Positions 409 to 22,507 of a DNA stretch of 64,000 nucleotides are shown in pieces (positions within the stretch are counted from its first letter, which is position 1; each line of letters opens with the position of its first letter). Source of the stretch: a candidate division FCPU426 bacterium (GTDB lineage: Bacteria; Oederibacteriota; Muellerivitia; Muellerivitales; Muellerivitaceae); the NCBI GenBank assembly GCA_030041545.1, contig JASHNQ010000001.1:1-64000 (forward strand), read 5' to 3'. The position numbers and the translations under genes were made by a program. The notes beneath the pieces were generated by a model that was not told the DNA's origin, made no database searches, and saw nothing but the letters and a program-made list of their open reading frames with translations.

Positions 409-442
409 ACCCTGCCCCTCTAAAGAGGGGCAGGGTTTTTTA
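409..442 (+). terminator. Rho-independent terminator of the rRNA operon
   Basis: ACCCTGCCCCTC and GAGGGGCAGGGT form a perfect 12-bp stem around a short TAAA loop, followed by a T-run. It lies just after the 5S gene. The stop codon of the convergent minus-strand gene falls in its T-tract, so the hairpin separates the two units. Confidence 0.92.
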
Positions 443-4749: not shown

Positions 4750-5722
4750 GCTCCAAACGCCGTTAACGGTTACAGCTTATAAAAGCGACGTCCATAACGA
4801 CTGGTGCCCGGGATGCGGCGATTTCGGTATCTTGCAGGCCATTCAGCAATCCTGCGCAGAACTGGCCCTGCCGCCCTGGGAAACCATGGTCTTCGCCGGC
4901 ATCGGCTGTTCGGGGAAGGTATTCAACTACATGGCATCCCACGGGGTGCACACCCTGCATGGCCGTGTGCTTCCTTTCGCGGTGGGCGCCAAGATCGCGA
5001 ATCCGGATCTAGAAGTCGTCGCGGTGGGTGGTGATGGCGATGGATACGGGATCGGAGCGGGCCATTTCGTGCATGCGGGCCGCCGCAATGTGGACATGGC
5101 CTATATCGTGATGACCAATGAGGTTTACGGCCTGACCAAGGGCCAGGCTTCTCCCACGCTGGGCCGTGGCCAGCAGACTAAGTCCCTGCCGCTTCCCAAC
5201 ACCAACGACGCTATCCAACCGCTGGCCCTGGCCTTGAGCTCGGGTTATACCTGGATCGGCCGCAGCTATGCCTTCGACGGGCGGCATTTGAAGGAGATGA
5301 TCAAGAAAGCCATTGAGCATAAGGGGATGGCCCTTTTGGACGTGCTTCAACCCTGCCCGACCTTCAACGATCTGCACACGGCGGAGTGGTTCAATAAGAA
5401 GGTCAAGGTGGAGGGTGAGACCAACATGGTTTCCCGAATCTTCAACGTTAACGAAGTGGGCCATGATGGTTCGGTCAAAGACCCCACTAACCTGGACGAG
5501 GTGACGGATAAGCAGAAGAAGGCCTTCGAGATGGCCCACCATCATGGTGAGCGAATTCCGGTAGGGGTGTTTTACGAAATCAAGCTGCCCACCTACACGG
5601 AACGCATGCAGGCCCAGGCGCCGATGCTCAAGAAGTATTCGCCGGCACGTATTCCTTATGAGGACGCGAGCCATTTGCCGACGACGGATCTTTCCAAGAC
5701 CTACGAAGAGTTTTTGTTTTAA
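4739..5722 (+). CDS. korB: 2-oxoacid:ferredoxin oxidoreductase, beta (TPP-binding) subunit
   Basis: The 327-residue thiamine-diphosphate subunit has the CxxC pair in WCPGCGDFG (Cys23, Cys26) and a third conserved Cys in GIGCSGKVFNY, which with a downstream Cys ligate the 4Fe-4S cluster. VGGDGDGYGIGAGHF followed by TNEVYGLTKGQ matches the TPP-binding GDG...N motif. With KorA it makes a two-gene enzyme, and no separate delta ferredoxin subunit gene is adjacent. It is followed by a strong terminator, so korAB is a bicistronic unit. It is a likely source of reduced ferredoxin for the Nuo complex encoded later in the window (inference). Confidence 0.94.
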   Translation: MVSKLQTPLTVTAYKSDVHNDWCPGCGDFGILQAIQQSCAELALPPWETMVFAGIGCSGKVFNYMASHGVHTLHGRVLPFAVGAKIANPDLEVVAVGGDGDGYGIGAGHFVHAGRRNVDMAYIVMTNEVYGLTKGQASPTLGRGQQTKSLPLPNTNDAIQPLALALSSGYTWIGRSYAFDGRHLKEMIKKAIEHKGMALLDVLQPCPTFNDLHTAEWFNKKVKVEGETNMVSRIFNVNEVGHDGSVKDPTNLDEVTDKQKKAFEMAHHHGERIPVGVFYEIKLPTYTERMQAQAPMLKKYSPARIPYEDASHLPTTDLSKTYEEFLF

Positions 5723-5869: not shown

Positions 5870-6250
5870 ATGGACTTCAATTTACCAAAGGTTACCTCTT
5901 TCCTTTGCTGCAACAACATTTTGCAGGATGTGATGACCAAGAATTATGAACTGCGGGGCGCTTTCCAGGGCTTCAGCCCCCCGGCTTATCCTTGGGGCGC
6001 CGAGTTCATGACCTTTTCCCGCTTTTTTTACGATGGCACCGGGGAGTTCCAGGTCGATATATCGCTTTACAATGAGAAGGGTGAAAAGATATCCGACAGC
6101 ATCCCGCGGAAAATACAATTTGCCGGGGAATTCCCCATGCATGACCTCATTACGACATGGCGCATCTTGTTTCCCAGCAATGGGGCCTATGTTTTCAAGG
6201 TTTTTTGCAACAACCTCAATATGGGGGAATTCCGACTTTATTGCCGATAA
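5870..6250 (+). CDS. Hypothetical protein, predicted beta-rich (DUF6941-like)
   Basis: This 126-residue protein has no signal peptide or membrane helix. It begins MDFNLPKVTSFLCCNNILQD and carries alternating short beta-type segments, including a central FDGxGEFQVDISLYNEKGE-like stretch and a terminal GEFRLYC. The pattern resembles small beta-sandwich proteins of the DUF6941 type, but I cannot confirm the match. The upstream Shine-Dalgarno is weak. It sits alone between the korB terminator and the giant membrane gene. The following 262 nt hold no gene, only a perfect 10-bp palindrome at 6421-6430. No function is proposed. Confidence 0.6.
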   Translation: MDFNLPKVTSFLCCNNILQDVMTKNYELRGAFQGFSPPAYPWGAEFMTFSRFFYDGTGEFQVDISLYNEKGEKISDSIPRKIQFAGEFPMHDLITTWRILFPSNGAYVFKVFCNNLNMGEFRLYCR

Positions 6251-6512: not shown

Positions 6513-9500
6513 GTGGGGAAGAAAGTTCAAAGCCCTCTTGCCGCCTTTGGGTTTCAAAAGCCCCTTCTTTGGCTCCTCCTGATCACCCTCCTTGGCGGCG
6601 CTTTCCGATTTTACAATCCCGATTGGGACCTCCAACATTCCTTCCACCCTGATGAACGGAATATCCTTGGCCAAACGGCCGGGATCCAAGCGTCCACCGG
6701 CTATAAGGTCACCTTTTTCGCCTACGGCCAACTCCCAGTCTACCTTTACCGTGCCACGGGCGAACTTCTCTCGACCCCCTCTTTTATTTGGAACCTTTGC
6801 CGGGGAAATGAGGGCTTGGCCCAATGGCTTTATTGGTTCGTTTTGGCCTTGGCCTTTGGAACCGCCATTTGGTTTTTTTCGAGGGAGAAATGGTCGCTTT
6901 ATTCCTTCGGGGCATCGGCTTTCCTCTGGGCTTGCCTCTTGCTTTTCAAGTTTTTCGGGATTTTTTCCATTTGGTTCGACCAACTCATCGATTTTCCGCT
7001 AAAGGCCGCCACCTTCTTGGTGGCGATGGTGGCTTCTTTCGGTTTTTCGCTTTGGATCGCCAAGGAATTGGAATGGGAATGGTCTGACACCCCCTTTTAT
7101 TCGGCGGCCGGGGCCACCTTTGCCTTTGGAATCCTGCCGATTTTCCTGCCCAATCCCGTGGCCCGCGTCTTTGGCTTGTTTTTGTTCACTTTTTTGGTGG
7201 CCGGTTTGGCCCTTTGGTGGGCCTGGACCTCCCGGTGGGGCAGGACGATTTTAGGTTTTTTCTCACTTTGGGCCATTTTTGCCTCCTTCAATCACGCGGG
7301 CCGACAGTACAGCGGTTATGGGGAATGCATGATCATCGGCCGCGTTTGGGCGGCGGCCTTTTCCACGGCCACGATTGCCGCGGTTTATTTACTGGTGAAG
7401 AAGATTTACCAGAACATCGGCATGGCCCTACTGGCTTCCGCCTGTTTCACCTTCGCGGTCGTCAGCATCGAGCAGGCGCATTACTGCATCGTTGAATCCT
7501 TCATCACCTTCCTGCTGGTAGTGACGGCGCTTTGCGCCTGGGAACTCTTCCGAAAGGGGGATTGGAAGAGCTACCTCGTGGCGGGGGCCGTCTTTGGCCT
7601 GTCCATGGCGGCAAAAACAAGTTCCCTTTATTACCTTTTCATGATTTTGACCGCCCATTTGGCATTGCTTTCCCGAAAATCCGCCAAGGAGTGGGAAAAG
7701 GAAGACGGGCGGTTGGGCGACAACGAAGGGCTTTATACCGCTTTGGCCGGTGTTTCCCTTGCGGCTTTACTGGGCGCCTTCCTCATGGTGGGATGGAAAT
7801 TAAAGGGAGTGATGGATGATCTTTTTCATTACGATCCCAAGATAGGTTTTGCCATCTGGCTTTTGCTTTTTGCGTTTTTAGCGTACCTTGGGATCGTTTT
7901 AACGGTTTGGGGCATTCTGGAATTCAGGGTTCTTCGGGCTCAGATGCCCCAATGGATCAAATTGGTGGCGGCGGGCGGGTTGGCGTTCTTTCTCTTCTGC
8001 CTTTTCTCTCCCTGGTCCCTCTTGGACTTCAACGGATTCATGATTTCCCAGAACTACGAGTGGCATACAGTTTCCATCGCGGACGCTTGTTATGTCCTTC
8101 AATTTAAGGATACACCCCGTTATCTCTTTCAATTAGAAAACCTTATGAGCGTGGAGCTCTGGTGGCCCCTCGGGATCGCGGCAGTTTTGGGAGCGGGTTG
8201 GGTCTTAGCCCGCTTCGTGTCCAAGCTTCTAAATCCTATACGGCATGGTTATCTCTTGCCTTTGCCTTTCACTCGAGGCAGGGGCTGGGCTTTTTCCCTC
8301 CCCGATCTCCTTCTCTTGAGTTGGTTCATTCCCTATTTCGGCTTTATCGGGGCATGGAACACCAAGTTTGTCCGTTATATGGTTCCTTTGATACCGGTCT
8401 TTTGCATCTTTGGGGCACGCTTATTTGGGGATTTCGTGGAATGGGCCAAACGCCTTTCTTGGGGGAAATGGCTAAAAACCGTCCTGGGAATCCTCATCGT
8501 GGGCCCCAGCTTTTTTTATTCCCTCGCCTATATGCACGTTTACACGCATCCCCATCCCTGGATCGATGCCTCGGTTTGGATCGCCAAGAACGTCCAACCG
8601 GGCGCAGTGATTGCAACGGACATGTGGGACGACGGCCTCCCCCAGGACCTTTCCCCCCAGCAGGACCCACGCTTAGAAAGGCCGGTCAGCCCCGGCCAGT
8701 ATGGCCACGTGGACGTGGATGTCTATTCCCCCATGGGAAACGGCCTTTCGGACGACAACGACACCAAGAAAAATTATTACGCCAATACCCTTCAAAAGGC
8801 CGATTACATCAGCCTGGCCACCAAGAAGCTCTGGTACACGCTGGTGGATTGCACGCCTGAGTTCCGCCCCCATGGGTTTAATCTTTATCCCGTGACCTCC
8901 CGGTATTTCCGGCTGCTTTGGTCGGGCCTTTTAGGCTACAAGATGGTCGGCGAATTCCACAATTTCCCCACCTTTCTAGGCTGGGTTCATCCCGACGACA
9001 TGGCAGAGGAATCCTTTTCGGTTTACGACCATCCCACGGTTTACCTTTTTAAAAAGGTCGAGGACGTGCCCCGCGACCAAATCCTGAAATTGCTGAGTTC
9101 GGATGACTACGTTAAGGGCATCAACCGGGACATCATGCGTACCATCACGCCGGACAACGTGGATGCCTTCATTTCCCAGCGCCACCAGTATTTGGAGGAT
9201 CACGGGCTTTTAGCCCAGTTGGAGGCGGCAGCCCCCACGGTTACGGCTGCCATCCCCCAGCCAACACCAGAAATTCCATTCCAACGCATAAATCCGGCCA
9301 AGAAGTCGGCTGTGCCAGCCCCGGCGGTTGAACCAACCCCGGAGATCAAGGTCGAAGCGCCGACTACCGTGCCGGGCCCGCCTGACGCCAAAACCCTGCA
9401 GGTTCTCCAGGATTACGCTAAAAATCCAGTGATTGAAAGCGATGTGACCCAATCCGCTGCCACTCCGGAGGACGGCTTCTTCTATCAGCTGCGGGCCTGG

Positions 9501-12500
9501 CTGAGTTGGGTGATTACCCTGATCCTTTTGGGCTGGATGGCCCTACCGCTGGCCTTGAGGGTTTTATCGTCTTTTCCCTCAGGAGCCTATTCCTTGAGCA
9601 AAATCCTGGGTTTTTTCGTGTTTTCGTGGGTGGTTTGGTTTTCGACCAGCCTGAGGTTTTGCCGTTTTACCTTTGGCTCCACCTGGGTTTGGTTCCTCCT
9701 CCTGGCCGCCCTGTCGCTAGGGATGTATTGGCGCGACCGCGAAGTGATCCAGGCCTTGCACGCCAAGTGGTCTAAGGCTTGGAGGGTCCAGGAGGGCGCA
9801 TTCGTCCTCATGTTCTTCCTCTTCACCCTGGTAAAGCTCTATATACCCCACATCCATGATCCGGTGGGCGAAGGCTACAACGGCGGCGGGGAAGCAGGCA
9901 TGGATTTTGGCTTCTTGTCTTCCATTGTGCGGGGGGAAACCTTTCCGCCCCAAAACATGTGGATGGCAGGTCAACCTCTTTATTACCCCTATTATTACGG
10001 CCATGTGATGATGGGCATCCTCACGAAATTCCTGGGACTTGCTCCGGCGGTCACCTATAACCTGGCCCTCATTACCCTCTTCGCCCTTATTTTCGCCAGC
10101 GCTTTCGGGCTTGCTTTCGCCCTATCTGGAAGGCTCGTGAGCGGTTGGATCGCGGGGCTTTTGTGCGCCGTGGCCGGAAACCCCGCTGGCTCCTGGCAAT
10201 ATTTGGAAGCCATCCACCAGTGCCTTGTTTCAGGAAACCTGGGGCCATTGATAGGGCATGTTTATGATTTTTGGGGTCCGAGCCGGGTGATCCCCAATTC
10301 GATCAATGAGTTCCCGTATTTCAGCGTACTTTATGGGGACTTGCACGCCCACACCCTAGCCATGCCCTTTGCCTTCCTTTTAGTGGCGGTTTGGGGTTCT
10401 TATTACCTTTCCAAGGCTTCCAAACCTTTTGACTGGTACCAAGACTGGCTTGTTTTTTTGACCGCTGGTTTTTTGTTGGGTGGCATCACTTTCCTCAATA
10501 CTTGGGATGTCCTTACTTGGCTGACCCTCGGGGGCCTGGCCCTGCTGGTTCGAAACTTGGGCGGGACGCCCATGAAAACCCTGCAAAAAGGCCTCGGAAT
10601 TTTTCTGGGAATCATGATCCTTTCGCTCCTTCTTTTGGGTTGGGTGGCCACCTTGGTCCCAGGGCTGGACTATCAAAACTTGGGCGGAAGCAAGTTCCTT
10701 TTGGCGGGAGCGGTGATCCTGGGAGCGGCGGCGGGAACCCTTGTTTTGTTTTTCCAGAAGCCAACCCAGGGCATGGCCAAGCATTTGACGGCGGCTGGTT
10801 TGACCCTGGCCGGAATTTTGGTTGTGATGGTAGCGACATGGATTCCACTTTTCGCATCTTTCGTTCCCCAGCAAAGCGAAGTGCTTTGGGTGACGCCCAA
10901 TTTAAGGACATCCCTCGGCAACTTTTTCGGCATTTACGGGCTTTTCGTGACGGCGCTGGCTGTAAGTTTCATCGTTGGTTTCTCAAAGGAATTAGCTCAA
11001 GGGCTGGGAAAGAATTCATCCAAAAAAGGCGGGTTGGATCTATTTTTGGATAAGGCCACGGATTTTATGGACCGCCTGATCGTTCCTGATCGCCCGGTAT
11101 TGGGAATGCTCTTTTTCGGCCTTGTGACCTTGGCGCTTGTTTGGGGGGCCTCTTGGGTCCACTGGACCGATCCTTCGGACAGGGCTCTTTTCTCCCTCTT
11201 GATCGCCACACCCGCGGCGGTGGCGTTGGCGCTCGCGGTCATATTCCGGAATGTTTTGGGTCTTTGGCTGGCCGCTTTGACTGTGGGTTTCCTGTGGCTT
11301 TCCCTCTTCTGCGTCCATCTCCTGCACCTATTCCAGGACATGCCCGTGACCCTGGGCTTGGGCCTTTTTTCCATGCTGTGGTTGGCGGCTTTCTTCCACA
11401 TGGGGCTGGCCCTCAAGACACTCAAGGACCGCAGCCTTTCTTTCTCCTACCTGTTGGTGGCCCTTTTCTTCTTCATCCTCGCCACCTTGGAGGTTTTTGT
11501 GATGAAGGAGTACTTGGGCGGCGAATACCTGAGGAACAATTCGCTCTTTAAGTTCGGCATCAACGCCTGGGAACTGGCTTCTGTGGCGGTGGGTGTTTTC
11601 CTTCCCAAGCTATTCGACTCATTCGGGCTTCTCCTCAAGGTGGCTTCTAAGGAGGGCCGCCCTGCCCGGATTAGTTTGATTTTGGTTGCGGAGGTACTCC
11701 TATTTGTCCTGTTCCGAATCCTTTTGGATAGTTTTCTTTCTTCCTTAGAATCCCCCTTGGTTTACGTCCTGAACCTGGTCCTCGTGGCGGGGTTGGTGGG
11801 ATGGAGCCTAGTGGAGGATTGGATGGGGAATGGGCCGTGGAAAGTTTGCACCTTGGGGGCAGGGATATTGGCGGCCCTGTTTTCGATTTTGGCTTTGCTT
11901 CCGCCTTTTGCCTATGGATCGGTGGTAGGCCTGGCCCAGAGGTGGATAGCAGGGTTTGAGACCGGTCTACTGTTCCCGGCGCTATTGGGGGCCGCCCTAC
12001 TGGGCTTGCTTTACTTGGTGTGGGAGGGACAGAGGAACCTTGGCCGCCTGATGGTTTTCAACAGTTGGCGGGCCTTGTTGCTGATGTTCGCCTTGATGGC
12101 CTGCGTTTATCCCTATGCCGCCACTGTGCGTAAATGCCACGGCTTTTTGGACTTCTTCCGAAAGCAATGGGTGGGGTACGCCGAGAACCTGACCTTGAAC
12201 GGCTTGGCCTACCTGGACCGGGAGAATCCTTATGACGGGGCGGCCATCCGCTTTATGAACGAATACATCCCGGACCAGCCTTGCCTGGTGGAGTTCGTGG
12301 GGGAAGGCTATAATTCGTGGGGCTCGCGGTTTTCCATTTTCACGGGCGTTCCGGCCTTGATGGGTTGGGACGGCCATGTGCGGGAGTGGCTGACGGGCCG
12401 ACCCGGGATGGACACCGACATCGGCCAAAGGTTCCAGGCCACCGACGACATTTTCCGGACCCCTGATCCCCAACTGGCGAAAAAAATCCTGGACGCCTAC

Positions 12501-12677
12501 GGCGTAAGGCTGGTCATGGTGGGGACCGTGGAAAGAAACGGGGTTCCGGGCCGAAAAGGCGGCTACCCTCCCGAGGGATTGGCCAAATTCTCAAGCTTTT
12601 TACCGTTGATTTACAAGAATCCCCAAGTTGAAATTTACTATAATCCACCCTCCGATAACACCGGAAACAAATCATGA
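6513..12677 (+). CDS. Giant GT-C/PMT-like and Chlor_Arch_YYY (DUF2298) fusion membrane protein
   Basis: This 2054-residue polytopic protein starts at GTG with an AGGAAAAG ribosome-binding site. The N-terminal half resembles PMT-type GT-C transferases, with HPDER at ~45-49 in the first extracytoplasmic loop followed by many helices. At ~900-985 lies a Pro/Ala/Thr-rich soluble linker with Gln/Glu repeats. The C-terminal half is a DUF2298/Chlor_Arch_YYY domain, with GEGYNGGGEAGMDFGF and then PLYYPYYYGH (the YYY motif at ~1157-1163). It ends in a soluble domain containing GWDGHVREW, shared with the next gene (GWDFHEAQW). TIGR families 03662/03663 define this protein class, whose function is unknown but associates with PMT-like transferases. 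Next to it are a second YYY protein, NHL propellers and a Dpm1-like GT2. The length and fusion are the notable features. Confidence 0.88.
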   Translation: MGKKVQSPLAAFGFQKPLLWLLLITLLGGAFRFYNPDWDLQHSFHPDERNILGQTAGIQASTGYKVTFFAYGQLPVYLYRATGELLSTPSFIWNLCRGNEGLAQWLYWFVLALAFGTAIWFFSREKWSLYSFGASAFLWACLLLFKFFGIFSIWFDQLIDFPLKAATFLVAMVASFGFSLWIAKELEWEWSDTPFYSAAGATFAFGILPIFLPNPVARVFGLFLFTFLVAGLALWWAWTSRWGRTILGFFSLWAIFASFNHAGRQYSGYGECMIIGRVWAAAFSTATIAAVYLLVKKIYQNIGMALLASACFTFAVVSIEQAHYCIVESFITFLLVVTALCAWELFRKGDWKSYLVAGAVFGLSMAAKTSSLYYLFMILTAHLALLSRKSAKEWEKEDGRLGDNEGLYTALAGVSLAALLGAFLMVGWKLKGVMDDLFHYDPKIGFAIWLLLFAFLAYLGIVLTVWGILEFRVLRAQMPQWIKLVAAGGLAFFLFCLFSPWSLLDFNGFMISQNYEWHTVSIADACYVLQFKDTPRYLFQLENLMSVELWWPLGIAAVLGAGWVLARFVSKLLNPIRHGYLLPLPFTRGRGWAFSLPDLLLLSWFIPYFGFIGAWNTKFVRYMVPLIPVFCIFGARLFGDFVEWAKRLSWGKWLKTVLGILIVGPSFFYSLAYMHVYTHPHPWIDASVWIAKNVQPGAVIATDMWDDGLPQDLSPQQDPRLERPVSPGQYGHVDVDVYSPMGNGLSDDNDTKKNYYANTLQKADYISLATKKLWYTLVDCTPEFRPHGFNLYPVTSRYFRLLWSGLLGYKMVGEFHNFPTFLGWVHPDDMAEESFSVYDHPTVYLFKKVEDVPRDQILKLLSSDDYVKGINRDIMRTITPDNVDAFISQRHQYLEDHGLLAQLEAAAPTVTAAIPQPTPEIPFQRINPAKKSAVPAPAVEPTPEIKVEAPTTVPGPPDAKTLQVLQDYAKNPVIESDVTQSAATPEDGFFYQLRAWLSWVITLILLGWMALPLALRVLSSFPSGAYSLSKILGFFVFSWVVWFSTSLRFCRFTFGSTWVWFLLLAALSLGMYWRDREVIQALHAKWSKAWRVQEGAFVLMFFLFTLVKLYIPHIHDPVGEGYNGGGEAGMDFGFLSSIVRGETFPPQNMWMAGQPLYYPYYYGHVMMGILTKFLGLAPAVTYNLALITLFALIFASAFGLAFALSGRLVSGWIAGLLCAVAGNPAGSWQYLEAIHQCLVSGNLGPLIGHVYDFWGPSRVIPNSINEFPYFSVLYGDLHAHTLAMPFAFLLVAVWGSYYLSKASKPFDWYQDWLVFLTAGFLLGGITFLNTWDVLTWLTLGGLALLVRNLGGTPMKTLQKGLGIFLGIMILSLLLLGWVATLVPGLDYQNLGGSKFLLAGAVILGAAAGTLVLFFQKPTQGMAKHLTAAGLTLAGILVVMVATWIPLFASFVPQQSEVLWVTPNLRTSLGNFFGIYGLFVTALAVSFIVGFSKELAQGLGKNSSKKGGLDLFLDKATDFMDRLIVPDRPVLGMLFFGLVTLALVWGASWVHWTDPSDRALFSLLIATPAAVALALAVIFRNVLGLWLAALTVGFLWLSLFCVHLLHLFQDMPVTLGLGLFSMLWLAAFFHMGLALKTLKDRSLSFSYLLVALFFFILATLEVFVMKEYLGGEYLRNNSLFKFGINAWELASVAVGVFLPKLFDSFGLLLKVASKEGRPARISLILVAEVLLFVLFRILLDSFLSSLESPLVYVLNLVLVAGLVGWSLVEDWMGNGPWKVCTLGAGILAALFSILALLPPFAYGSVVGLAQRWIAGFETGLLFPALLGAALLGLLYLVWEGQRNLGRLMVFNSWRALLLMFALMACVYPYAATVRKCHGFLDFFRKQWVGYAENLTLNGLAYLDRENPYDGAAIRFMNEYIPDQPCLVEFVGEGYNSWGSRFSIFTGVPALMGWDGHVREWLTGRPGMDTDIGQRFQATDDIFRTPDPQLAKKILDAYGVRLVMVGTVERNGVPGRKGGYPPEGLAKFSSFLPLIYKNPQVEIYYNPPSDNTGNKS

Positions 12678-12737
12678 ATTTTGAATGGTTGAAAGTTTTT
12701 CATTGAGGTTGAAAAGCATCCGAGATTCATAATTCCA
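12677..12737. repeat. Decayed intergenic element with AATTTTGAAT end
   Basis: The spacer begins with AATTTTGAAT (12677-12686), then GTTGAAAGTTTTTCA and a TTTTCA/TGAAAA stem, ending in a degraded ATTCATAATTCCAAAT. The order and words match the better preserved element at 53146-53238, so this looks like an older copy of the same family. Confidence 0.45.
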
Positions 12738-12757
12738 AATTGCCTTTTGGAGTTTCA

Positions 12758-15304
12758 ATGCTTTCCTTATTGAGTTGGTACGCTGTGCTGCTGGTGCTGG
12801 GGCTCGCCACCTACCCCATCGCCTTCGTGATGCTCAAGCACTTTCCTGACAAGGGTTACGTTTTCAGCAAGGTCCTGGCCTTGCTGCTGGTGGGTTATTT
12901 TTCGTGGTTGCTGGGCTATGTTTCCTTCAGCGGCGCGACGATTTTCTTTTCCTTTCTTCTCGTGGCGGCTCTTTCGGCCACGCTTCTTTTGACCTGGATC
13001 GGCCAACCCTTCAAGGAATTTTTCACCAAGAACCTCGGTTTTTTCCTCCTAATGGAGGGATTCTTCCTCATGGCCCTCCTGGTGGCCGGGGCCTACAAAA
13101 TGCGGACCTATGAGATCGCGGGCACGGAAAAACCCATGGATTTCGCCATGATCAACGGTATCCTGGCCTCGCCCCACATGCCGCCGCAGGACCCTTGGCT
13201 CTCCGGAGCAAGCATTTCCTATTACTATTTCGGGTATTTCATCGTCGCCATGCTCTGCAAGATCACTTCCGTGCCTTCGGGGGAGGGCTATAACATGGCC
13301 GTGGCCTTGATCTGGGCCCTGGCCACCCTCTGTGCTTTTTCAATCGCTTATGCCCTTACCCGCCGGTACCGTTATTCCTTCCTTTCAGCTGCCTGCCTGA
13401 CCCTTTTCGGGAACCTGGACTACTGGCACCGGGCCATCCAGAGTTTCCAAATCGGGGACTTGAGGATCCCTTACTACAATTTTCCCCCTAACGGCGGGGT
13501 TGAAAACGGCCTTTCCGGTTTTTTCGGGTTCCTTTTCAACCCCTTGCAGCATAATTGGGATTATTTCCAGGCTTCCCGCATCGTGCCGGTGCCGCCCACG
13601 GACAAGCTCATCAACGAATTTCCCTCCTTCAGCTTTTTCCTGTCGGATTTGCATCCCCACGTGATGGCCATTCCTTTTGTCTTGCTGTCGGTTGCGGTCG
13701 CGTTTAATTTCCTGAAGGCGCCCTTGCCGGGGCTTGCCCTTTTCGGCGGCCAGAGGCCATGGCAATGGCTCCAATGGGGGCTGACGGCGCTGGTTTTCGG
13801 AGCCTTGTCCTTTATGAACAGCTGGGATTTCCCCACCTTCATGCTTTTGCTGGGGATATGCCTGTTCCTGCAACAGTGGTGGAGTAACGAGAAAAGCTTC
13901 AACGTTTGGGCCCGGTCGGTCGTGCTGGTAGGCGTGCCCATTGTGATCGGCGCTTTCCTCTTGTACCTGCCTTTTTACGTGAGGTTCCAATCACAAGCCA
14001 AGGGGATTGGCATCGTCAAGGACCGGACCGACCTGTATTACCTGGCGGTCATCTTTGGCCTGTTCTTCATCCTGGAGATTCCAGCGGCCGTGGGGAGGGC
14101 CCTTGGGGCCAAGGGGGAAAAGACCCAGCGGCCCAAAACGAAAAAAGCCGAGGAGTTGGAGTGCGTCGTTTGTGGAAGGGAAGAGTCAGGAAAGAAATTT
14201 TGCGGCTATTGCGGCGGTGAACTGGCTCCTTCGGCCAAGTCGGAAGTATCACCCCTGCCCGATGAACCCACGCAACAGTTCCTCGCGAAGGTGGCGGCTT
14301 TTTTTACCGGCCCCTCCGGTTCCAACCGGGGCTGGATATCCCTTGGGGTCGCCGTTGCCGTGCTTTTGCTGTTGAACATCCCCCAAGTTCAATTGGGGGA
14401 TCACATTACCCCCATAAAATTAGCCACCCTGGCCTTGGCCGCACTGATGGCGGTTTTCACGGTCGTTTCCTTGGGAACGCCGTCGGAAAGCAGGGAAAGC
14501 GTCTTTACGACTTTGATGCTCCTTATCGGCTTTTTGCTGATTTGCGGTTGTGAAACGATTTTCCTCAAGGACCATTTCTCCGACAGCGCCCTTTACCGCA
14601 TGAATACGGTTTTTAAGTTCCATTACCAGGTTTGGATTTTGTTCAGCCTGGCGGCTGGCCCCCTTCTGAAATGGCTTCTGGAAAACCAATGGCCCCGTTG
14701 GGTTGCCTGGAAAAGGGCTCTCTGGCTGGGAGCCGCGATCTTCGCCTTGATTGGCGCAGCCGCCTATCCAATCCTGGCCTTCACTGCCCGCATGCGGGGC
14801 TCCTCTCCGGAACTGGCCACCATGGATGGAGAGACCTACTATGAGCACACTTTCCCGGCTGACTTCCAGGCGGCCCAGTGGATCAAACAGAATATCAAGC
14901 CCATTCAAGGGAAGACGCCTGTCATCCTGGAAGCTTGGGGCGGGTCCTACCAGCAGCAGTACGACACCCTGGCCACCATGACGGGTTTTCCCACCGTCTT
15001 AGGATGGGATTTCCATGAGGCCCAATGGCGCGGCTCCTGGGACCAGGCCGCGGTCCGGGGCCAAAACCCGGGTGACACGGTTTTCCAACGGCGGTCCGAC
15101 GTGGACGCCATTTACACCTCCTCCGACCTCAATCAAACCCGGGATTTATTGAAAAAGTATGGCGTGGATTACGTTTATGTGGGGGATGCGGAACGAGAAA
15201 AATACAAGGATCACTTGGAAAATCTAGGCAAATTTGGACAATTAGGTACTATTGTCCAGGCCTTTGGCAGTTCGGTTCTTTATAAGATAAACCCGCTGAA
15301 TTAG
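12758..15304 (+). CDS. Chlor_Arch_YYY (DUF2298) membrane protein with inserted zinc ribbon
   Basis: This 848-residue, strongly hydrophobic protein carries the YYYxG motif exactly (SISYYYFGYF, Tyr155-157), preceded by KPMDFAMINGIL and followed by GEGYNMAVAL, as expected for TIGR03662/DUF2298. At ~467-493, between membrane segments, lies a CxxC...CxxC zinc ribbon (CVVCGREESGKKFCGYCGGE). The C-terminal soluble part has GWDFHEAQWRGSW and YGVDYVYVGDAERE and parallels the end of the preceding giant protein, so the two share a paralogous module. The ATG at 12758 is preferred because TGGAG precedes it, although an in-frame TTG exists at 12740. It probably belongs to the same membrane glycosylation machinery. 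The biochemical role is unknown. Confidence 0.9.
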   Translation: MLSLLSWYAVLLVLGLATYPIAFVMLKHFPDKGYVFSKVLALLLVGYFSWLLGYVSFSGATIFFSFLLVAALSATLLLTWIGQPFKEFFTKNLGFFLLMEGFFLMALLVAGAYKMRTYEIAGTEKPMDFAMINGILASPHMPPQDPWLSGASISYYYFGYFIVAMLCKITSVPSGEGYNMAVALIWALATLCAFSIAYALTRRYRYSFLSAACLTLFGNLDYWHRAIQSFQIGDLRIPYYNFPPNGGVENGLSGFFGFLFNPLQHNWDYFQASRIVPVPPTDKLINEFPSFSFFLSDLHPHVMAIPFVLLSVAVAFNFLKAPLPGLALFGGQRPWQWLQWGLTALVFGALSFMNSWDFPTFMLLLGICLFLQQWWSNEKSFNVWARSVVLVGVPIVIGAFLLYLPFYVRFQSQAKGIGIVKDRTDLYYLAVIFGLFFILEIPAAVGRALGAKGEKTQRPKTKKAEELECVVCGREESGKKFCGYCGGELAPSAKSEVSPLPDEPTQQFLAKVAAFFTGPSGSNRGWISLGVAVAVLLLLNIPQVQLGDHITPIKLATLALAALMAVFTVVSLGTPSESRESVFTTLMLLIGFLLICGCETIFLKDHFSDSALYRMNTVFKFHYQVWILFSLAAGPLLKWLLENQWPRWVAWKRALWLGAAIFALIGAAAYPILAFTARMRGSSPELATMDGETYYEHTFPADFQAAQWIKQNIKPIQGKTPVILEAWGGSYQQQYDTLATMTGFPTVLGWDFHEAQWRGSWDQAAVRGQNPGDTVFQRRSDVDAIYTSSDLNQTRDLLKKYGVDYVYVGDAEREKYKDHLENLGKFGQLGTIVQAFGSSVLYKINPLN

Positions 15305-15322
15305 TTTTGAGTTTTGAGGATT

Positions 15323-15429
15323 GCCCTCATTAACATTTTTGGAATATCGGGCGAAGCCCGATGAAGGTAATGAGGGCGACGCAGTTTTCATTATGGGGCC
15401 ATCGGCCCTTTTGCATTGGAAAAACTGCG
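15323..15429. repeat. Two nested palindromic hairpins in a 229-nt spacer
   Basis: Hairpin 1: GCCCTCATTA (15323-15332) pairs with TAATGAGGGC (15368-15377) and encloses ATCGGGC-GAA-GCCCGAT (15346-15362). Hairpin 2: CGCAGTTTT (15380-15388) pairs with AAAACTGCG (15421-15429) and encloses GGGCC-ATC-GGCCC (15396-15408). Similar GAGTTTTGAG words flank both. A third AT-only hairpin (TTTTTTAAATC/GATTTAAAAAA) follows at ~15450-15475. The arrangement looks like intergenic MITE/REP material or a structured RNA, not a simple terminator. Confidence 0.7.
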
Positions 15430-15533
15430 TGAGTTTTGAGTTGTGGAATGTTTTTTAAATCAAAGATTTAAAAAACCCCGTTAACTTAAAATTTAGAACT
15501 AAAAACTTAAAACTTCTTTCAAGGAGGATCGGA

Positions 15534-16556
15534 ATGAAGATCGGCGAGCGTGAAGTGACGCCCAAGGAGATGGGCGTCGTCGTCATTGTGGGATTGGTGG
15601 TGGTGGCGCTCCTTTGGTATATGCTGGGGAACAAACCTAAACCCATCATCGGCGTCCCCGGTCAGGGATTGGTCCTGATGCAAGGAGGGCAGCCGGGCGT
15701 GGGACCGGGGCAGTTCGCCTATCCCCGCGGAATCGCGGTGGACGGCAATGGCGATATCTACGTGGCCGACAGCCGCAACAGCCGGATACAAAAATTCAGG
15801 GGTTCGAACTGGCAGTACCTGGGGGAATTCGGGGGGCTTTACGACGCGGCCAAGGCCGCCGGCGGGGATCCCAAGAAGCTTACCACCCTGGCGCTGGGCA
15901 AGTTGAACGAACCCAACGGGGTGGCGGTCGGGCCGAACAACAATATTTATGTCATCGACACCTGGAACTTCCGCGTCCAAGTCTTCGGCCCCAAAGGCGG
16001 GTTTAAATCCGCCTTTACGGCCGATGACGGGTTTTTCGGCCCACGGGAAATCACGGTGGATCCCAGCGGGAGTTGTTATGTCGCCGATACCGGCAAGCAC
16101 CGGATCGTGAAGTTTGATCCCACAGGCAAGAAAATCCTGGCATGGGGATCGAAGGGTGATAAGGAAGGTCAGTTCAACGAGCCCATCGGGTTGGCCCTGG
16201 ACCAGGCCGGCAACCTTTATGTGGCGGACCGGTTAAATTTCCGTATCCAAGTATTCACTCCCGAGGGACAGTTTATCCGCCAGTGGAAAGTGGAGGGGTG
16301 GTCGCCGGAGCAAATCGACATGGAACCGCATTTGGCCCTGGACCAGGCCCACGGGCTGATTTACGCCTCGGACGGGCGTGGAAAGAAGGTTGACTGTTAT
16401 AAGTTGGATGGGACCCTGGTTTCGACCCTTGAAACCAATACCACGGGAGCGCCCTTGTTTGGGGTACCCATCGGCGTGGCGGTGGACAAGGAAGGGAATC
16501 TTTACGTGGTGGACGCCGCCGCCGCAAGGATCCTTAAAATCAAAGGCCAGTTCTAA
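15534..16556 (+). CDS. Membrane-anchored NHL-repeat beta-propeller protein
   Basis: The 340-residue protein starts at ATG behind AAGGAGG. A short cytoplasmic segment is followed by one hydrophobic helix (~13-31, GVVVIVGLVVVALLWYML), which would anchor it with the rest outside. Six NHL blades follow, with motifs such as YPRGIAVDGNGDIYVADSRN, EPNGVAVGPNNNIYVIDTWN, GPREITVDPSGSCYVADTGK and EPIGLALDQAGNLYVADRLN, enough for a closed six-bladed propeller. NHL propellers bind proteins, RNA or glycans. The position between YYY proteins and a polyprenyl-phosphate sugar synthase suggests an extracytoplasmic part of the same system (inference). It is followed 54 nt later by a paralogue. Confidence 0.88.
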   Translation: MKIGEREVTPKEMGVVVIVGLVVVALLWYMLGNKPKPIIGVPGQGLVLMQGGQPGVGPGQFAYPRGIAVDGNGDIYVADSRNSRIQKFRGSNWQYLGEFGGLYDAAKAAGGDPKKLTTLALGKLNEPNGVAVGPNNNIYVIDTWNFRVQVFGPKGGFKSAFTADDGFFGPREITVDPSGSCYVADTGKHRIVKFDPTGKKILAWGSKGDKEGQFNEPIGLALDQAGNLYVADRLNFRIQVFTPEGQFIRQWKVEGWSPEQIDMEPHLALDQAHGLIYASDGRGKKVDCYKLDGTLVSTLETNTTGAPLFGVPIGVAVDKEGNLYVVDAAAARILKIKGQF

Positions 16557-16610
16557 GCGGGTTTCAGGGGGCCAGGGGTTCAAAAGTATCCGACGGACCG
16601 AGGAGGAATA

Positions 16611-17624
16611 ATGCCCAAGCTTAAAAAAAGGCCGGTTAAGGGCAAAAAGTCGAAAAAAGGGGTCAAAATTTTTCTGGTCCTGTTCGTCCTCGTTTTTTTG
16701 ACGGTCCTTTTGTACGCGGCCATCAGCCAGCTCAACAAGGCGCTCATCGAAGCCAAGACCGTGGCGGTGAGCGTGGATATGGAAATAGGCTCACCGGGGG
16801 ATGGACCGGGCCAATTCAAGGAGCCCTGCGCCGTGGCCACCGATTCACAGGGTGACTTTTACGTCAGTGAATTCAGCGGGCACCGCGTGCAAAAATTCGA
16901 TCCCAACGGCACCCCCCTGCTCTCGATCGGCAAGGAAGGCAAGGAAGAAGGCGAGTTCAACCAGCCTAGCGGCCTGTTTGTCGACGCCCAGGGGGACATT
17001 TATGTCTGCGATACCTTCAACCACCGCATCCAGGAGTTCGACAAGGATGGGAACCCGCTGAGGGCCTGGAGCCATAGTTTCTTCGGCCCGCGATCCATCG
17101 TGGGAAACGGCGGTTCGGCAGGCTCACCGCAGGCCAGGCTTTACGTTTCGGATACGGGTAACCATCAAATCCAGGTTTTCGACGCCAACGGCCAATTCCT
17201 GATGCAGTGGGGTGGTTTCGGCACGGGGCCTGGGAAATTCCGCGAACCCGTGGGCGTGACCCTGGACCCCCAGGGCAACGTTTATGTGGCGGACTCCGAT
17301 AACCTGCGGATCCAGAAATTCGACCCCAACGGCAAGTTCTTGGCCGCCTTCCGGATACCCACCTGGCGAGGCAAGAACGACGAATTGCCTTATTTGGCCT
17401 TCGGCCAGGGGTTCCTTTACGCCAGCAACGCCAGCCAAAATGCCGTCCTCCAATTGGACCCCAACGGGAAGCTGACAGCGATTTTCCGGCGCAAAAACGA
17501 CAAGGCGGGTTTCACGGGGGCGGCGGGCATCGCCGTGGACGGCCAAAACCACCTCTACGTGGCCGAAAGAGGCAGCGGAAAAGTCGCACGGTTCACCATC
17601 CCTACTACCGTAACCGCCCCCTAA
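16611..17624 (+). CDS. Second membrane-anchored NHL-repeat beta-propeller protein
   Basis: The 337-residue paralogue of the preceding gene has a very basic N-terminus (MPKLKKRPVKGKKSKKG) that enforces an N-in orientation, one transmembrane helix (~18-36), then six NHL blades (for example EPCAVATDSQGDFYVSEFSG, QPSGLFVDAQGDIYVCDTFN, EPVGVTLDPQGNVYVADSDN). A GAGGAGG ribosome-binding site precedes the ATG. Its stop overlaps the start of the GT2 gene (TAATG), implying translational coupling and tying the propellers to sugar transfer. Confidence 0.88.
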   Translation: MPKLKKRPVKGKKSKKGVKIFLVLFVLVFLTVLLYAAISQLNKALIEAKTVAVSVDMEIGSPGDGPGQFKEPCAVATDSQGDFYVSEFSGHRVQKFDPNGTPLLSIGKEGKEEGEFNQPSGLFVDAQGDIYVCDTFNHRIQEFDKDGNPLRAWSHSFFGPRSIVGNGGSAGSPQARLYVSDTGNHQIQVFDANGQFLMQWGGFGTGPGKFREPVGVTLDPQGNVYVADSDNLRIQKFDPNGKFLAAFRIPTWRGKNDELPYLAFGQGFLYASNASQNAVLQLDPNGKLTAIFRRKNDKAGFTGAAGIAVDGQNHLYVAERGSGKVARFTIPTTVTAP

Positions 17625-18352
17625 TGAAATCCCACAACCGAAAAACCATCATCGTTGTGCCGACCTACAACGAAAAGGGCAATATCCAAACCATCTACGG
17701 GAAGATCTTCAAGGCCGCCGGCGGCTGCCACTTGCTCATCGTGGACGACAATTCACCCGACGGCACGGGAAGGATGGCCGATGGCATCGCGCGCAAGGAC
17801 AAGCGAGTCGCCGTGCTCCACCGTCATGGCAAGTTGGGCCTGGGGTCGGCCTACGTGGCGGGCATGAAGCACGCCCTTGAACAGGGTTATCAAAATGTGA
17901 TCGCCATGGACGCGGATTTGTCCCATGACCCCTCCAATATCCCCAAAATGTTGGAATTGGCGCGCCACTACGACCTGGTCATCGGTTCCCGCTACGTGAA
18001 GGATGGCGGCATGGTGAATTGGACGGCCCGGCGTTTCATTATCAGCCGTGCGTCCAATCTTTATTGCCAGTGGGTGCTGGGCCTCACCCAGGACGACTGT
18101 TCCGGGGGGTTCAAGTGCTACCGGGCGGACCTGCTCCGGAAAATCGACCTGTCCAAGGTTTTCTCCCCTGGTTATTCCTTCCAGGTGGAAATCCTCTTCC
18201 GTGCCGTGCGCGCCGGGGCCAAGGCCGTGGAAATCCCCATTATTTTCGTCAACCGCCACGTTGGTGAGAGCAAGTTGAATCTCAAGGAATTATGGGAATT
18301 CGGTTGGACGGTTTTGAAGCTGCGCTGGCTGGCGTGGATAGGCAAAGTTTAA
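17624..18352 (+). CDS. Dpm1-like polyprenyl-phosphate mannosyl/glycosyltransferase (GT2)
   Basis: The 242-residue GT-A enzyme has PTYNEKGNI and LLIVDDNSPDGTG at the nucleotide-sugar site, the DxD-type MDADLSHDP, GSRYVKDGG and the acceptor-side DDCSGGFKCYR and GYSFQVEILFR segments. These are typical of dolichol/polyprenyl-phosphate mannose synthases. The C-terminal membrane helices of some family members are absent, so it is a short cytosolic or peripheral form. It would make polyprenyl-phosphate-sugar from a nucleotide sugar on the inner face. That lipid is the donor class used by the PMT/Agl23/YYY-type proteins encoded around it. It overlaps the upstream NHL gene by one base. Confidence 0.9.
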   Translation: MKSHNRKTIIVVPTYNEKGNIQTIYGKIFKAAGGCHLLIVDDNSPDGTGRMADGIARKDKRVAVLHRHGKLGLGSAYVAGMKHALEQGYQNVIAMDADLSHDPSNIPKMLELARHYDLVIGSRYVKDGGMVNWTARRFIISRASNLYCQWVLGLTQDDCSGGFKCYRADLLRKIDLSKVFSPGYSFQVEILFRAVRAGAKAVEIPIIFVNRHVGESKLNLKELWEFGWTVLKLRWLAWIGKV

Positions 18353-18464
18353 AAACTTTTTTTAAGAAGACTTTCAGCCGTTCTGAAGAGCCGCTGCCGA
18401 CAGAGCATCTATGTTGGAAGAGGCCTGAAACATGGCTCCTTCGCTTCGCGCAGGACAACTTAAA

Positions 18465-18494
18465 CAAAAAGGCGGCCCGAAGGCCGCCTTTTTG
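18465..18494. terminator. Bidirectional terminator between convergent genes
   Basis: CAAAAAGGCGGCC-CGA-AGGCCGCCTTTTTG is a near-symmetrical GC stem with an A-run on one side and a T-run on the other, placed between the GT2 gene and the convergent Agl23-like gene. Confidence 0.9.
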
Positions 18495-18537
18495 TTTTGG
18501 AGGGTTCGCTCGAATCGTCCTTCCTGGGCGCCGTTTC

Positions 18538-21027
18538 CTAACGGGTGTTAGGGAGTGTGGTGTGTCGGTTTTTCTTTTCGGGCGTTGGGGCGGGCGTTGG
18601 GGCGGGCAGGGGGTATTCGGTTGGAATGTCGCTCCGATCGGTTCCGGTGAAGCCGTATTTATCCGCCAAGTCCTTCCTGACCCACATGCGCATGTTATAG
18701 CTTCCCAGGTCGGACCATACCTGCCGGTAAAGCAGCCAGCTTTTCAGGTCGCCCCAATCCACCATGTCGGGGCGGGCGGGCGAAAGAGGAATGAAATTGC
18801 TGAAAAGCCAGCTGAAAAACAGGCTGGAAGTGATCTCGGTGGAGGGATAACCTTTTTTGAACCAGGAAGGCACCCACCAGATGCGCAGCTTGTACTTGCG
18901 GTTGACGTAGCCGGCCTGGCTCAAGAGGGGATAGACCTGGGCGTCCGATTCAGTGGCCGTCAGGATAATGGGGTTGTCGGCCATGGTGATATTGGCCGGG
19001 TGGTTGCGTCTCGAAAAGTCCCGCAACTGCCAGGCAAAGGGCCAGGAACACTTGTCCTCGATGGTGAGGGCGAGGCCGTCGTGGAATGCCTTTTCCGCGT
19101 CGGTGACGCCGGGGGGCGCGTCGGGATTGGGCCCTCCCGTTTCGCCATAGGAAATTTCCCGGATGATCCGCTCGACTTCCTGGCAATCCGGCCCGGATTG
19201 GACATAAACCAGGGGTTCCACCGGATTGGCCTCATGGTAAAAGGTCAAGAGAACGGCGGAATGGAGGGAATAGGATATCAAGAGGATGAAAACCGCCACG
19301 GCCGCCAGGCGGGCGGACTTCCAAACTTGGTCGAGGGGTTTCGCTTCAATGATCCGGCCTATCAAGTAGGCGGACAGGAGCAATGCCGGCAGAAGCAGGT
19401 GGATGATCAGCCATGGCATTTTCTCGCCGGCCCAACCGAACAAGACCATTGAACCCAAATACCAATAACCGAGGAAAATGGGCAAATGGTTCCAGGCGTA
19501 TTTGGCGTAAGCCGGATCCTGCTTGTAGCTGGGATAAAAGAAAACACGGATACGCACAAGGGCGGGGACAAGCCAGTAATAAACCATCGCCACGATGGAA
19601 AACAGGAAGGAGACGAGTTCGGTGGCCGGAAGCAGGACGAGGTAATAATACCAGGGCTCATCGCCCCTGTGGACGCCCTGCTGGCCCCACCAGTACTCCA
19701 ATCCCCCGAAAGCGCCGTTATAGATGGCGTTCAAGAGGCCGTGCATCCGCGACCAAAAATCAGGCTGGTTGGCCCCGACCGTGAAGAAAGTCGTGAACAA
19801 AAGGGTGAAGACGATGCTGCCAATGGCGATCGAGCCGGTCAAGGCCGGAGCCGTATTTTTAAGCCAGAGCCAGCAAAACCAAAAAAGGATCCCCAGATAA
19901 ACCAGCACCCAAAGGCAGGAAAAGGGAAGGGGAAAATTGACGCCGAAGTGGGGGAACACCCTTAAAATCAAAAGCGTCACCACCCACCATCCCAAGACGG
20001 CCAAAAGGCTCCAGCTAATTTTCTCAAAACCCAACCCGCAGATGATTTCCCACAAGGCGCTTTCCGCCTTGCCTTTTTTCAGGTTTTCCTGCCAGCGGAA
20101 AAAAAGTTGGACCAATGTGTAAGCGAGGGCGGCTCCCAAAATGAACAGGAAAACAGGCAGGAAAGCCGGTGAGGTTTTATCGACGTTTTTGACCCACAAA
20201 AGCGCAATCCCGGTTATGACGCCGGCAATGATCACGTTCGACCAGGGCAAAAGCCGGACAAAGAGATAGGTCCCGATCACGGCGATGGTCAGGAACATGG
20301 ATTCCTTGGTGCAAAAGGCGATGGTAAACCCCAACGCCGCCCACCAAAGATCCAGGGATCTGCGGGAGCGGTAATACCGGAAGAGGAAAACCACCATGAG
20401 GAATGTGGCGCCCGCAATGTAGGCGTCTTCCCGGCAGAACCGGTCGAAATACATGAAACTGGGGGAGAATACGATCATAGCCGTGGCCAAGAAGGCGCCC
20501 CACCTTCCCAGGAAGGGACGCAGGAAAATGGCCAAAACGACGGTTAAAATCCCAAAAAAGGCGGCCAAGTACCGGGAGCTGGCATTGGAAACCCCGAAAA
20601 GGTAATACATGAAGGCGTTGCCGTGGAACTGGAATGGCCCGTGCATCATGGGGTCGTATTGATAATCCCCGTCATGGAAGAGCTGGTAGGAATAGAAGGC
20701 GTGCATGCTCTCGTCGTGGTGGTGGGGCTTGGCTCCCAGGTGATCAAAACGGGTGAAAACCGCCAGTAAAAGCAGGGCGGCATAAGCTATTTCCATCCAA
20801 GAAAAGGACAAAGGGCCCCTGGAGGAAACCGGCGTTTCGGCCGTTAGGTTTTTTTCCTTTAATTCGGTTTCCTGGGCTGTTTTCCCCGTTTTCACCGTGG
20901 GGGTGGGTTTGGGAAGGGACTTATCCGGATGGCTCGCGGCTGGAAGTTTTGAGCCGCATTGCTCACAAAAGTTATTTGTGGCTGGGTTTTTAAACCCGCA
21001 TTTTCCACATAGCTTTATTTCCGGCAT
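18538..21027 (-). CDS. Agl23-like (TIGR03663) GT-C membrane protein with N-terminal zinc ribbon
   Basis: This 829-residue protein opens with a zinc ribbon (CGKCGFKNPATNNFCEQCGS, residues ~7-26), a charged Pro/Thr linker to ~70, then a polytopic domain. The hallmark PHHHDESMHAFYSYQLFHDG and YDPMMHGPFQFHGNAF give the acidic catalytic-type first loop of PMT-like GT-C proteins of the Agl23/TIGR03663 family. That family almost always co-occurs with Chlor_Arch_YYY proteins, as here. The C-terminus is a soluble Pro-rich tail ending with TLPNTR. AAGGAGAG precedes the ATG. It is convergent with the YYY/NHL/GT2 run but clearly part of the same locus. It would act on a lipid-linked sugar at the outer leaflet. 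The exact reaction is unproven. Confidence 0.9.
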   Translation of the reverse strand: MPEIKLCGKCGFKNPATNNFCEQCGSKLPAASHPDKSLPKPTPTVKTGKTAQETELKEKNLTAETPVSSRGPLSFSWMEIAYAALLLLAVFTRFDHLGAKPHHHDESMHAFYSYQLFHDGDYQYDPMMHGPFQFHGNAFMYYLFGVSNASSRYLAAFFGILTVVLAIFLRPFLGRWGAFLATAMIVFSPSFMYFDRFCREDAYIAGATFLMVVFLFRYYRSRRSLDLWWAALGFTIAFCTKESMFLTIAVIGTYLFVRLLPWSNVIIAGVITGIALLWVKNVDKTSPAFLPVFLFILGAALAYTLVQLFFRWQENLKKGKAESALWEIICGLGFEKISWSLLAVLGWWVVTLLILRVFPHFGVNFPLPFSCLWVLVYLGILFWFCWLWLKNTAPALTGSIAIGSIVFTLLFTTFFTVGANQPDFWSRMHGLLNAIYNGAFGGLEYWWGQQGVHRGDEPWYYYLVLLPATELVSFLFSIVAMVYYWLVPALVRIRVFFYPSYKQDPAYAKYAWNHLPIFLGYWYLGSMVLFGWAGEKMPWLIIHLLLPALLLSAYLIGRIIEAKPLDQVWKSARLAAVAVFILLISYSLHSAVLLTFYHEANPVEPLVYVQSGPDCQEVERIIREISYGETGGPNPDAPPGVTDAEKAFHDGLALTIEDKCSWPFAWQLRDFSRRNHPANITMADNPIILTATESDAQVYPLLSQAGYVNRKYKLRIWWVPSWFKKGYPSTEITSSLFFSWLFSNFIPLSPARPDMVDWGDLKSWLLYRQVWSDLGSYNMRMWVRKDLADKYGFTGTDRSDIPTEYPLPAPTPAPTPEKKNRHTTLPNTR

Positions 21028-22397: not shown

Positions 22398-22507
22398 TCT
22401 TGCATCGGCCGGGGGACGGATTAAAAAACTCCTCTTCATTTGTTTTGGATTGGAGTATCATAGAAACGCTTGGCTGTTTCCGTTATCTCTCGCCCTTTGA
22501 GGTATCC

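Follow-up and report, generated by a model that had tools for sequence, protein, structure and literature searches.

The six-gene locus at 6513-21027 of the window, by which is meant the whole 64,000-nucleotide stretch analysed here, probably encodes an extracytoplasmic, lipid-carrier-dependent glycosylation system in which two NHL beta-propeller proteins are dedicated partners of the membrane protein Agl23. A broader reading falls slightly short of an even chance: the propellers would be acceptor-binding subunits of Agl23 as a GT-C enzyme, the YYY (DUF2298) proteins would form a new GT-C family, and all would belong to one widespread bacterial, perhaps also archaeal, machine. Behind these readings stand direct observations: the genes present, their conserved neighbourhood and fusions, the fold class matched by the YYY2 model, and active-site-like conservation. 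If the readings hold, DUF2298 would join the glycosyltransferase families, and GT-C enzymes would gain the beta-propeller as an accessory part of a new type; the Agl23-NHL and GT-C-YYY fusions offer direct handles, each being one polypeptide suited to expression, cleavage and assay.

Gene Content of the Locus

The initial annotation placed six genes in the locus with nothing else between them, and the ORF check bore this out, finding no other sizeable ORF among them. The features are as follows.

440-2497, minus strand: TMEM260-like O-mannosyltransferase-family protein with TPR (PF11028, E 1e-28); flanking
6513-12677, plus strand: GT-C-YYY fusion gene (ORF, 2054 aa)
6513-9212, plus strand: FusN, the N-terminal GT-C-like module of the fusion, ~900 aa (HPDER motif, profiles)
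9495-12539, plus strand: YYY (DUF2298, TIGR03662) module of the fusion (TIGR03662 at 9495-11705 and 11979-12539)
12740-15304, plus strand: YYY2, stand-alone YYY/DUF2298 membrane protein (ORF, 854 aa); predicted GT-C glycosyltransferase
14153-14224, plus strand: zinc-ribbon-like insertion in YYY2, CxxC...CxxC (weak Pfam Zn_ribbon_3, E 0.06)
15534-16556, plus strand: NHL1, membrane anchor and NHL beta-propeller (ORF, 340 aa)
16611-17624, plus strand: NHL2, membrane anchor and NHL beta-propeller (ORF, 337 aa)
17624-18352, plus strand: GT2, soluble and DPM-synthase-like (ORF, 242 aa); predicted lipid-sugar donor synthase
18538-21027, minus strand: Agl23 (TIGR03663; ORF, 829 aa); predicted GT-C enzyme and/or lipid-sugar flippase

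The NHL and GT2 assignments proved sound, with clear Pfam matches (PF01436 and PF00535), as did the Agl23-like assignment (TIGR03663, 235 bits against a cutoff of 126.25). Both proteins annotated as YYY exceed the TIGR03662 cutoff, but the first is a fusion with a separate GT-C-like module. The genes had also been described as overlapping or abutting: NHL2 and GT2 do overlap by 1 base, the sole overlap among the six, but Agl23 lies on the opposite strand, convergent with GT2, and is therefore not in one transcript with the other five. The window comes from candidate phylum FCPU426, and its host genome of 3.8 Mb contains about 20 further NHL-bearing loci, a density at which two NHL genes within 14.5 kb are unlikely to be there by chance.

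The TMEM260-like protein is outside the conserved set and possibly unrelated to the locus; besides it, the window has a further GT-C-type protein, a weak PMT_2 match at 33447-35489 (minus strand). Just upstream of the GT-C-YYY gene is an ORF of ~126 aa (5870-6250, plus strand); relatives in the FCPU426 family f1 have a similar-sized ORF at this position, and the copy in locus L010 matches DUF6941. On the other side of the locus, 22400-24880 (plus strand) encodes a long predicted protein, rich in proline and internally repetitive, that nothing in Pfam matches; it is flanked by a PorV/FadL-like and an LptD-type protein.

YYY Proteins as Predicted GT-C Enzymes

YYY2 matches TIGR03662 with 507 bits (cutoff 300) and Pfam PF10060 with 342 (cutoff 27.8), and its YYYxG motif (YYYFGY, aa 161-166) is invariant in the alignment. 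When its AlphaFold2 model (pTM 0.75, mean pLDDT 66) was compared with the PDB by Foldseek, the sole near-full-length matches at probability 1.00 were GT-C enzymes, namely the C-mannosyltransferase DPY19 (E 1.7e-5 to 1.1e-4) and mycobacterial AftA (E 4e-3 to 8e-3); the next entry at probability 1.00 was the globular domain of an archaeal oligosaccharyltransferase (E 0.13). TM-scores for these matches are low (0.31-0.38 by query, on a model of moderate quality), so the match indicates fold class and not specificity. Charged residues are near-invariant among YYY sequences (E130 in 71/73 and D151 in 72/73; also E293, H305, and H307), and hydropathy alone places E130 and D151 in the first large extracytoplasmic loop. 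Searching the PDB with YYY sequence gave no match, and hhalign gave no meaningful sequence-profile match of YYY to Agl23 or FusN. GT-C families often share no detectable sequence-profile similarity; the missing profile homology makes the membership of YYY less certain and leaves the fold match unaffected. YYY2 is predicted to be a GT-C glycosyltransferase. Its zinc-ribbon-like insertion is lineage-specific, occurring in the alignment in FCPU426 f1 sequences only.

The first ~900 residues of the 2054-aa fusion, FusN, are not recognised by Pfam. The HPDER motif (aa 45-49) sits in the first large loop of FusN and is invariant in 10/10 aligned sequences. By hhalign FusN is related to Agl23 (92.7% probability, E 4e-7), and the top PDB matches of its profile, weak ones, are PMT1/PMT2 (E 0.002-0.02). 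Stand-alone FusN homologues of ~610 aa adjoin YYY as separate genes in Chloroflexota. The YYY module of the fusion scores 360 bits against TIGR03662 (cutoff 300) and 250 against PF10060 (cutoff 27.8); it carries the YYYxG motif as PYYYGH, and E1094, D1276, H1278, and H1280 are kept in 37/37 fused homologues. At 6/6 FCPU426 loci from families f11 and f13-f16 (L019, L025, L027, L036, L038, and L040), the fusion gene is followed by genes for a PAP2 phosphatase and a polysaccharide deacetylase.

DUF2298 may already belong to the Pfam GT-C clan. The literature searched, with partial coverage, holds no reaction for YYY and nowhere calls DUF2298 a GT-C enzyme. The initial annotation had regarded both YYY and Agl23 as families with no assigned reaction; within that coverage this stands for YYY but not for Agl23, which has been proposed to be a flippase (PMC11182771).

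Agl23

The Agl23 family profile matches the PDB entry of ArnT (5ezm) with E 8e-6. The motifs HDES and MHG are invariant in the alignment, D105 and E106 are kept in 97/97 homologues, and H109, H129, R196, and R199 are also near-invariant (97-99 sequences). In the alignments, only sequences of the window's family have the zinc-ribbon-like CxxC pair at the N-terminus (20944-21009, minus strand). Co-occurrence of YYY and Agl23 is already part of the TIGRFAM family definitions.

The same genome encodes a second Agl23 on contig C51 (L030:7850-10312), 66% identical to that of the window; its neighbours are genes for a beta-lactamase-fold protein and an ABC transporter, with no YYY, NHL, or GT2 adjacent. 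One FCPU426 genome has two Agl23 copies in tandem (L011:726-3131 and 3262-5667), and tandem duplication is seen as well at the Chloroflexota loci L121, L127, L140, and L143.

NHL Propellers

NHL1 (Pfam NHL, E 4e-44) and NHL2 (E 3e-37) are each predicted from hydropathy to have one membrane anchor, at aa 13-31 near the N-terminus of NHL1 and at aa 20-38 of NHL2. The N-terminus of NHL2 is Lys/Arg-rich and strongly basic, as expected if the N-terminus lies inside and the propeller outside (hydropathy only). In 8 FCPU426 families, orthologues of NHL1, the first NHL gene, are found at this locus; they form a clade with 98/96 support in the NHL-domain tree, so this propeller has been kept with the locus across most of the phylum; NHL2 falls in an f1/f2 clade (support 100/100).

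The propellers look like working parts rather than bystanders, since Chloroflexota relatives fuse Agl23 to an NHL propeller. The topology of the NHL-domain tree neither supports nor contradicts a single origin of fused and stand-alone propellers. In a model of the Agl23-NHL fusion (pTM 0.51) the orientation of propeller against enzyme is unreliable and the docking not interpretable. An F[FW]GPR loop was considered as an NHL signature of the system and dropped, being present in 39/45 fused propellers but in 18/37 stand-alone ones. Literature searches with partial coverage returned no paper on NHL repeats with glycosyltransferases in Chloroflexi and no link between NHL propellers and Agl23.

Other pairings of NHL proteins with glycosyltransferases were encountered. 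In the window's order, genes for an NHL protein, a GT9 (heptosyltransferase family) protein, and a DPM-type GT2 stand in a row and make up a further conserved module (L171:2128-5046 on contig C111 of the host genome, L031, and L015:14511-17441). Near the Agl23 locus of some Chloroflexota are large proteins that resemble GT-C (PMT_2) and end in a C-terminal NHL propeller (L102:1739-5545, L108:1859-5719, and L133:14743-18465); those of L102 and L108 have a PA14 domain between the two parts.

Conserved Neighbourhoods

Among 45 FCPU426 genomes, YYY is found in 35 and Agl23 above cutoff in 34. Neighbourhoods were counted in families with enough flanking sequence; an NHL gene adjoins YYY/Agl23 in 8 of 10 of these and is missing there in f6 and f8. 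Two arrangements recur. The window's family and order have GT-C-YYY, YYY, NHL, NHL, (methyltransferase), and GT2, usually with Agl23 convergent; families f11, f14, f15, and f16 and one f7 genome have YYY, Agl23, NHL, NHL, a Wzx-type flippase, and GT2, and in these the GT-C-YYY fusion sits elsewhere.

Agl23 was detected at E 1e-35 or better in 125/201 sampled Chloroflexota genomes, from which 60 loci of 20 kb centred on Agl23 were taken down the E-value list and not at random. Agl23 and an NHL propeller form a single protein of ~900-1700 aa in 28/60 loci; YYY is present in 45/60 and the HPDER module in 26/60, fused to YYY in 19 of the 26. DPM-type GT2 occurs in just 5/60, and about half of the 60 lack NHL in their 20 kb. 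As controls, 20 random loci of 20 kb drawn from these Chloroflexota genomes contained no Agl23-NHL, NHL, YYY, HPDER, or DPM-type GT2 (Fisher p 2.7e-5 for any NHL and 9e-10 for YYY, 60 loci against 20 controls, relatedness uncorrected). The initial annotation had named co-occurrence of these genes as a check. The set recurs in both phyla, with a weaker link for GT2, and is absent from the 20 random loci; the view that the genes belong together is upheld by the FCPU426 neighbourhoods and by the gene fusions; the Agl23-NHL and HPDER-YYY fusions are the strongest evidence that each pair works together.

YYY (DUF2298) and Agl23 were also found in the control archaea Haloferax and Methanosarcina. 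A Halarchaeum plasmid carries a DUF2298 stretch with no annotated Agl23 or NHL gene nearby; one SMP-30-family propeller-like gene lies ~10 kb from DUF2298, across the plasmid origin.

GT2 and the Lipid-Sugar Donor

GT2 matches the Pyrococcus DPM synthase (PDB 5mlz) over residues 6-240 with E 1.5e-31; hydropathy predicts no membrane segment, and no NCBIfam equivalog is over cutoff. Its orthologues occur in families f3-f5, which are without YYY (one f5 genome excepted, with two YYY fragments at E 1e-5 to 1e-6), and in other families the orthologue is on a contig other than that of YYY. In the GT2 tree, the GT2s encoded at f7 and f10-f16 loci form a subfamily distant from the window's GT2; in Chloroflexota, a DPM-type GT2 adjoins YYY at the two loci L111 and L119. 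The window's GT2 was rejected as donor synthase of all YYY loci, as two deeply separate GT2 types stand at such loci and its own type groups with copies elsewhere, including one from a YYY-less genome. The Dpm1-like gene is not a constant member of the set proposed in the initial annotation, being present without YYY in f3-f5, elsewhere in most families, and at few Chloroflexota loci. Non-orthologous GT2s at these loci mean that a DPM-type synthase has come to lie next to them repeatedly, which fits a shared need for lipid-linked sugar.

Proposed Mechanism and Alternatives

We infer the reaction, its sugar, its acceptor, its direction, and the role of the propellers. By homology, the soluble DPM-synthase-like GT2 would make a polyprenyl-phosphate sugar on the cytoplasmic leaflet. 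The lipid-sugar would then be flipped by a component that is not fixed in the locus; candidates for this step are Agl23 itself and the Wzx-type protein whose gene is close to that of Agl23 in relatives. Outside, the GT-C-YYY fusion, YYY2, and Agl23, as GT-C-fold enzymes, would use the conserved acidic residues of their first large loop to pass sugars carried on lipid to an acceptor in the envelope. At the periplasmic face, the membrane-anchored propellers would most likely keep the acceptor in place or bring Agl23 together with the other enzymes. Transfer of lipid-linked sugar outside the membrane, as first suggested for this locus, is probable from the matches of YYY2 to the GT-C fold, Agl23 to ArnT, and GT2 to DPM synthase, but GT2 is not a set part of it.

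The NHL proteins might instead have an unrelated task and be neighbours only by descent, in a loose cluster of envelope genes. NHL proteins are common in this genome, with its 20 or so other loci, and half of the Chloroflexota Agl23 loci lack NHL; the single Agl23-NHL polypeptides at 28/60 loci, the orthologues of NHL1 kept at this locus by 8 families, and the 0/20 random loci with NHL make such clustering very improbable. A different division of labour is unlikely but deserves more weight: Agl23 would be a lipid-sugar flippase and not a transferase, the YYY enzymes would carry out the transfer outside, and the propellers would aid the flippase or the receiving enzyme. TIGR03663 is itself named "flippase activity-associated protein Agl23," and Haloarcula Agl23 suppressed deletion of yeast rft1 and moved M5GN2-PP-dolichol in proteoliposomes (PMC11182771). 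Against this are the family profile match to ArnT, the invariant HDES and MHG residues, which are typical of catalytic GT-C loops, and, at several FCPU426 loci, a Wzx-type flippase that has its own gene within a few genes of Agl23. The invariant catalytic-type residues and the Wzx-type genes of relatives favour Agl23 as a transferase, neither being decisive.

The outside transferases proposed here could act on an envelope polysaccharide or glycolipid rather than on protein, with the propellers binding or guiding the glycan chain; this is possible, with the chances somewhat against it. Polysaccharide deacetylase and PAP2 phosphatase genes adjoin the GT-C-YYY gene in FCPU426 relatives, the single DUF2298 gene of a Pseudobutyrivibrio plasmid is part of a polysaccharide cluster that also encodes an O-antigen ligase, and AftA acts on cell-wall arabinogalactan; DPY19, the other fold match of YYY2, glycosylates protein, and the window locus has no polymerase or ligase. 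AftA also suggests a polyprenyl-phosphate pentose as donor, supplied by a decaprenyl-phosphate phosphoribosyltransferase, whose gene, over the curated cutoff, adjoins the GT-C-YYY gene in f6 and f7. This gene is absent from 9/9 f1/f2 genomes, those of the window's own taxonomic order, which have YYY, and is present in the YYY-less families f3-f5; it cannot supply the window's system, and the pentose donor, rejected for this lineage, is barely credible as a general reading but may apply in f6/f7. The phosphoribosyltransferase is missing from the f1/f2 order (G000 and G023-G030) and present in most other members of the phylum.

Comparison with Known Systems

Multi-component transmembrane glycosylation systems combine a GT-A lipid-sugar synthase, a flippase, which in some is of the Wzx type, and a GT-C enzyme acting outside (PMC8035078). 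According to a speculation in the same review, small GT-Cs might depend on a partner protein to bind the acceptor (PMC8035078), and the propellers are proposed here to play this part. In the window locus the GT-A lipid-sugar synthase corresponds to GT2 and the GT-C transferase to YYY2, FusN, and Agl23; the locus has no GtrA- or Wzx-type flippase, a Wzx-like gene is found in relatives, and Agl23 may serve in its place. A GT-A synthase and a GT-C enzyme are common to the window locus and to CsbB-GtcA-YfhO, GtlA-GtcA-GtlB, GacI-GacK-GacL, and ArnC-ArnEF-ArnT; in contrast to such systems, the window locus has several GT-Cs, of YYY and Agl23 type, and NHL propeller partners, separate or fused.

Haloarcula hispanica Agl22/Agl23 resembles the window locus in pairing an Agl23-family protein with a second glycosylation enzyme, Agl22; papers citing Lu 2020 report that they act in making and using lipid-linked intermediates. 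It differs in that no propeller is reported, Agl23 is assigned as a flippase, and the setting is archaeal N-/O-glycosylation.

Single enzymes offer further points of likeness. DPY19, the best fold match of the YYY2 model at ~10% identity, is a eukaryotic GT-C C-mannosyltransferase that depends on dolichol-P-mannose and acts on protein tryptophan. AftA, the second fold match (TM 0.5 by target), is the mycobacterial arabinosyltransferase that uses decaprenyl-P-arabinose; the window's order seems to lack the pentose donor route that it relies on. ArnT (GT83) shares with Agl23 the profile match and acidic first-loop residues, and Agl23 differs from it in being longer and in having NHL partners. 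The general kind of system is therefore known, and what is most likely new is the propeller partner together with the YYY/Agl23 enzyme set.
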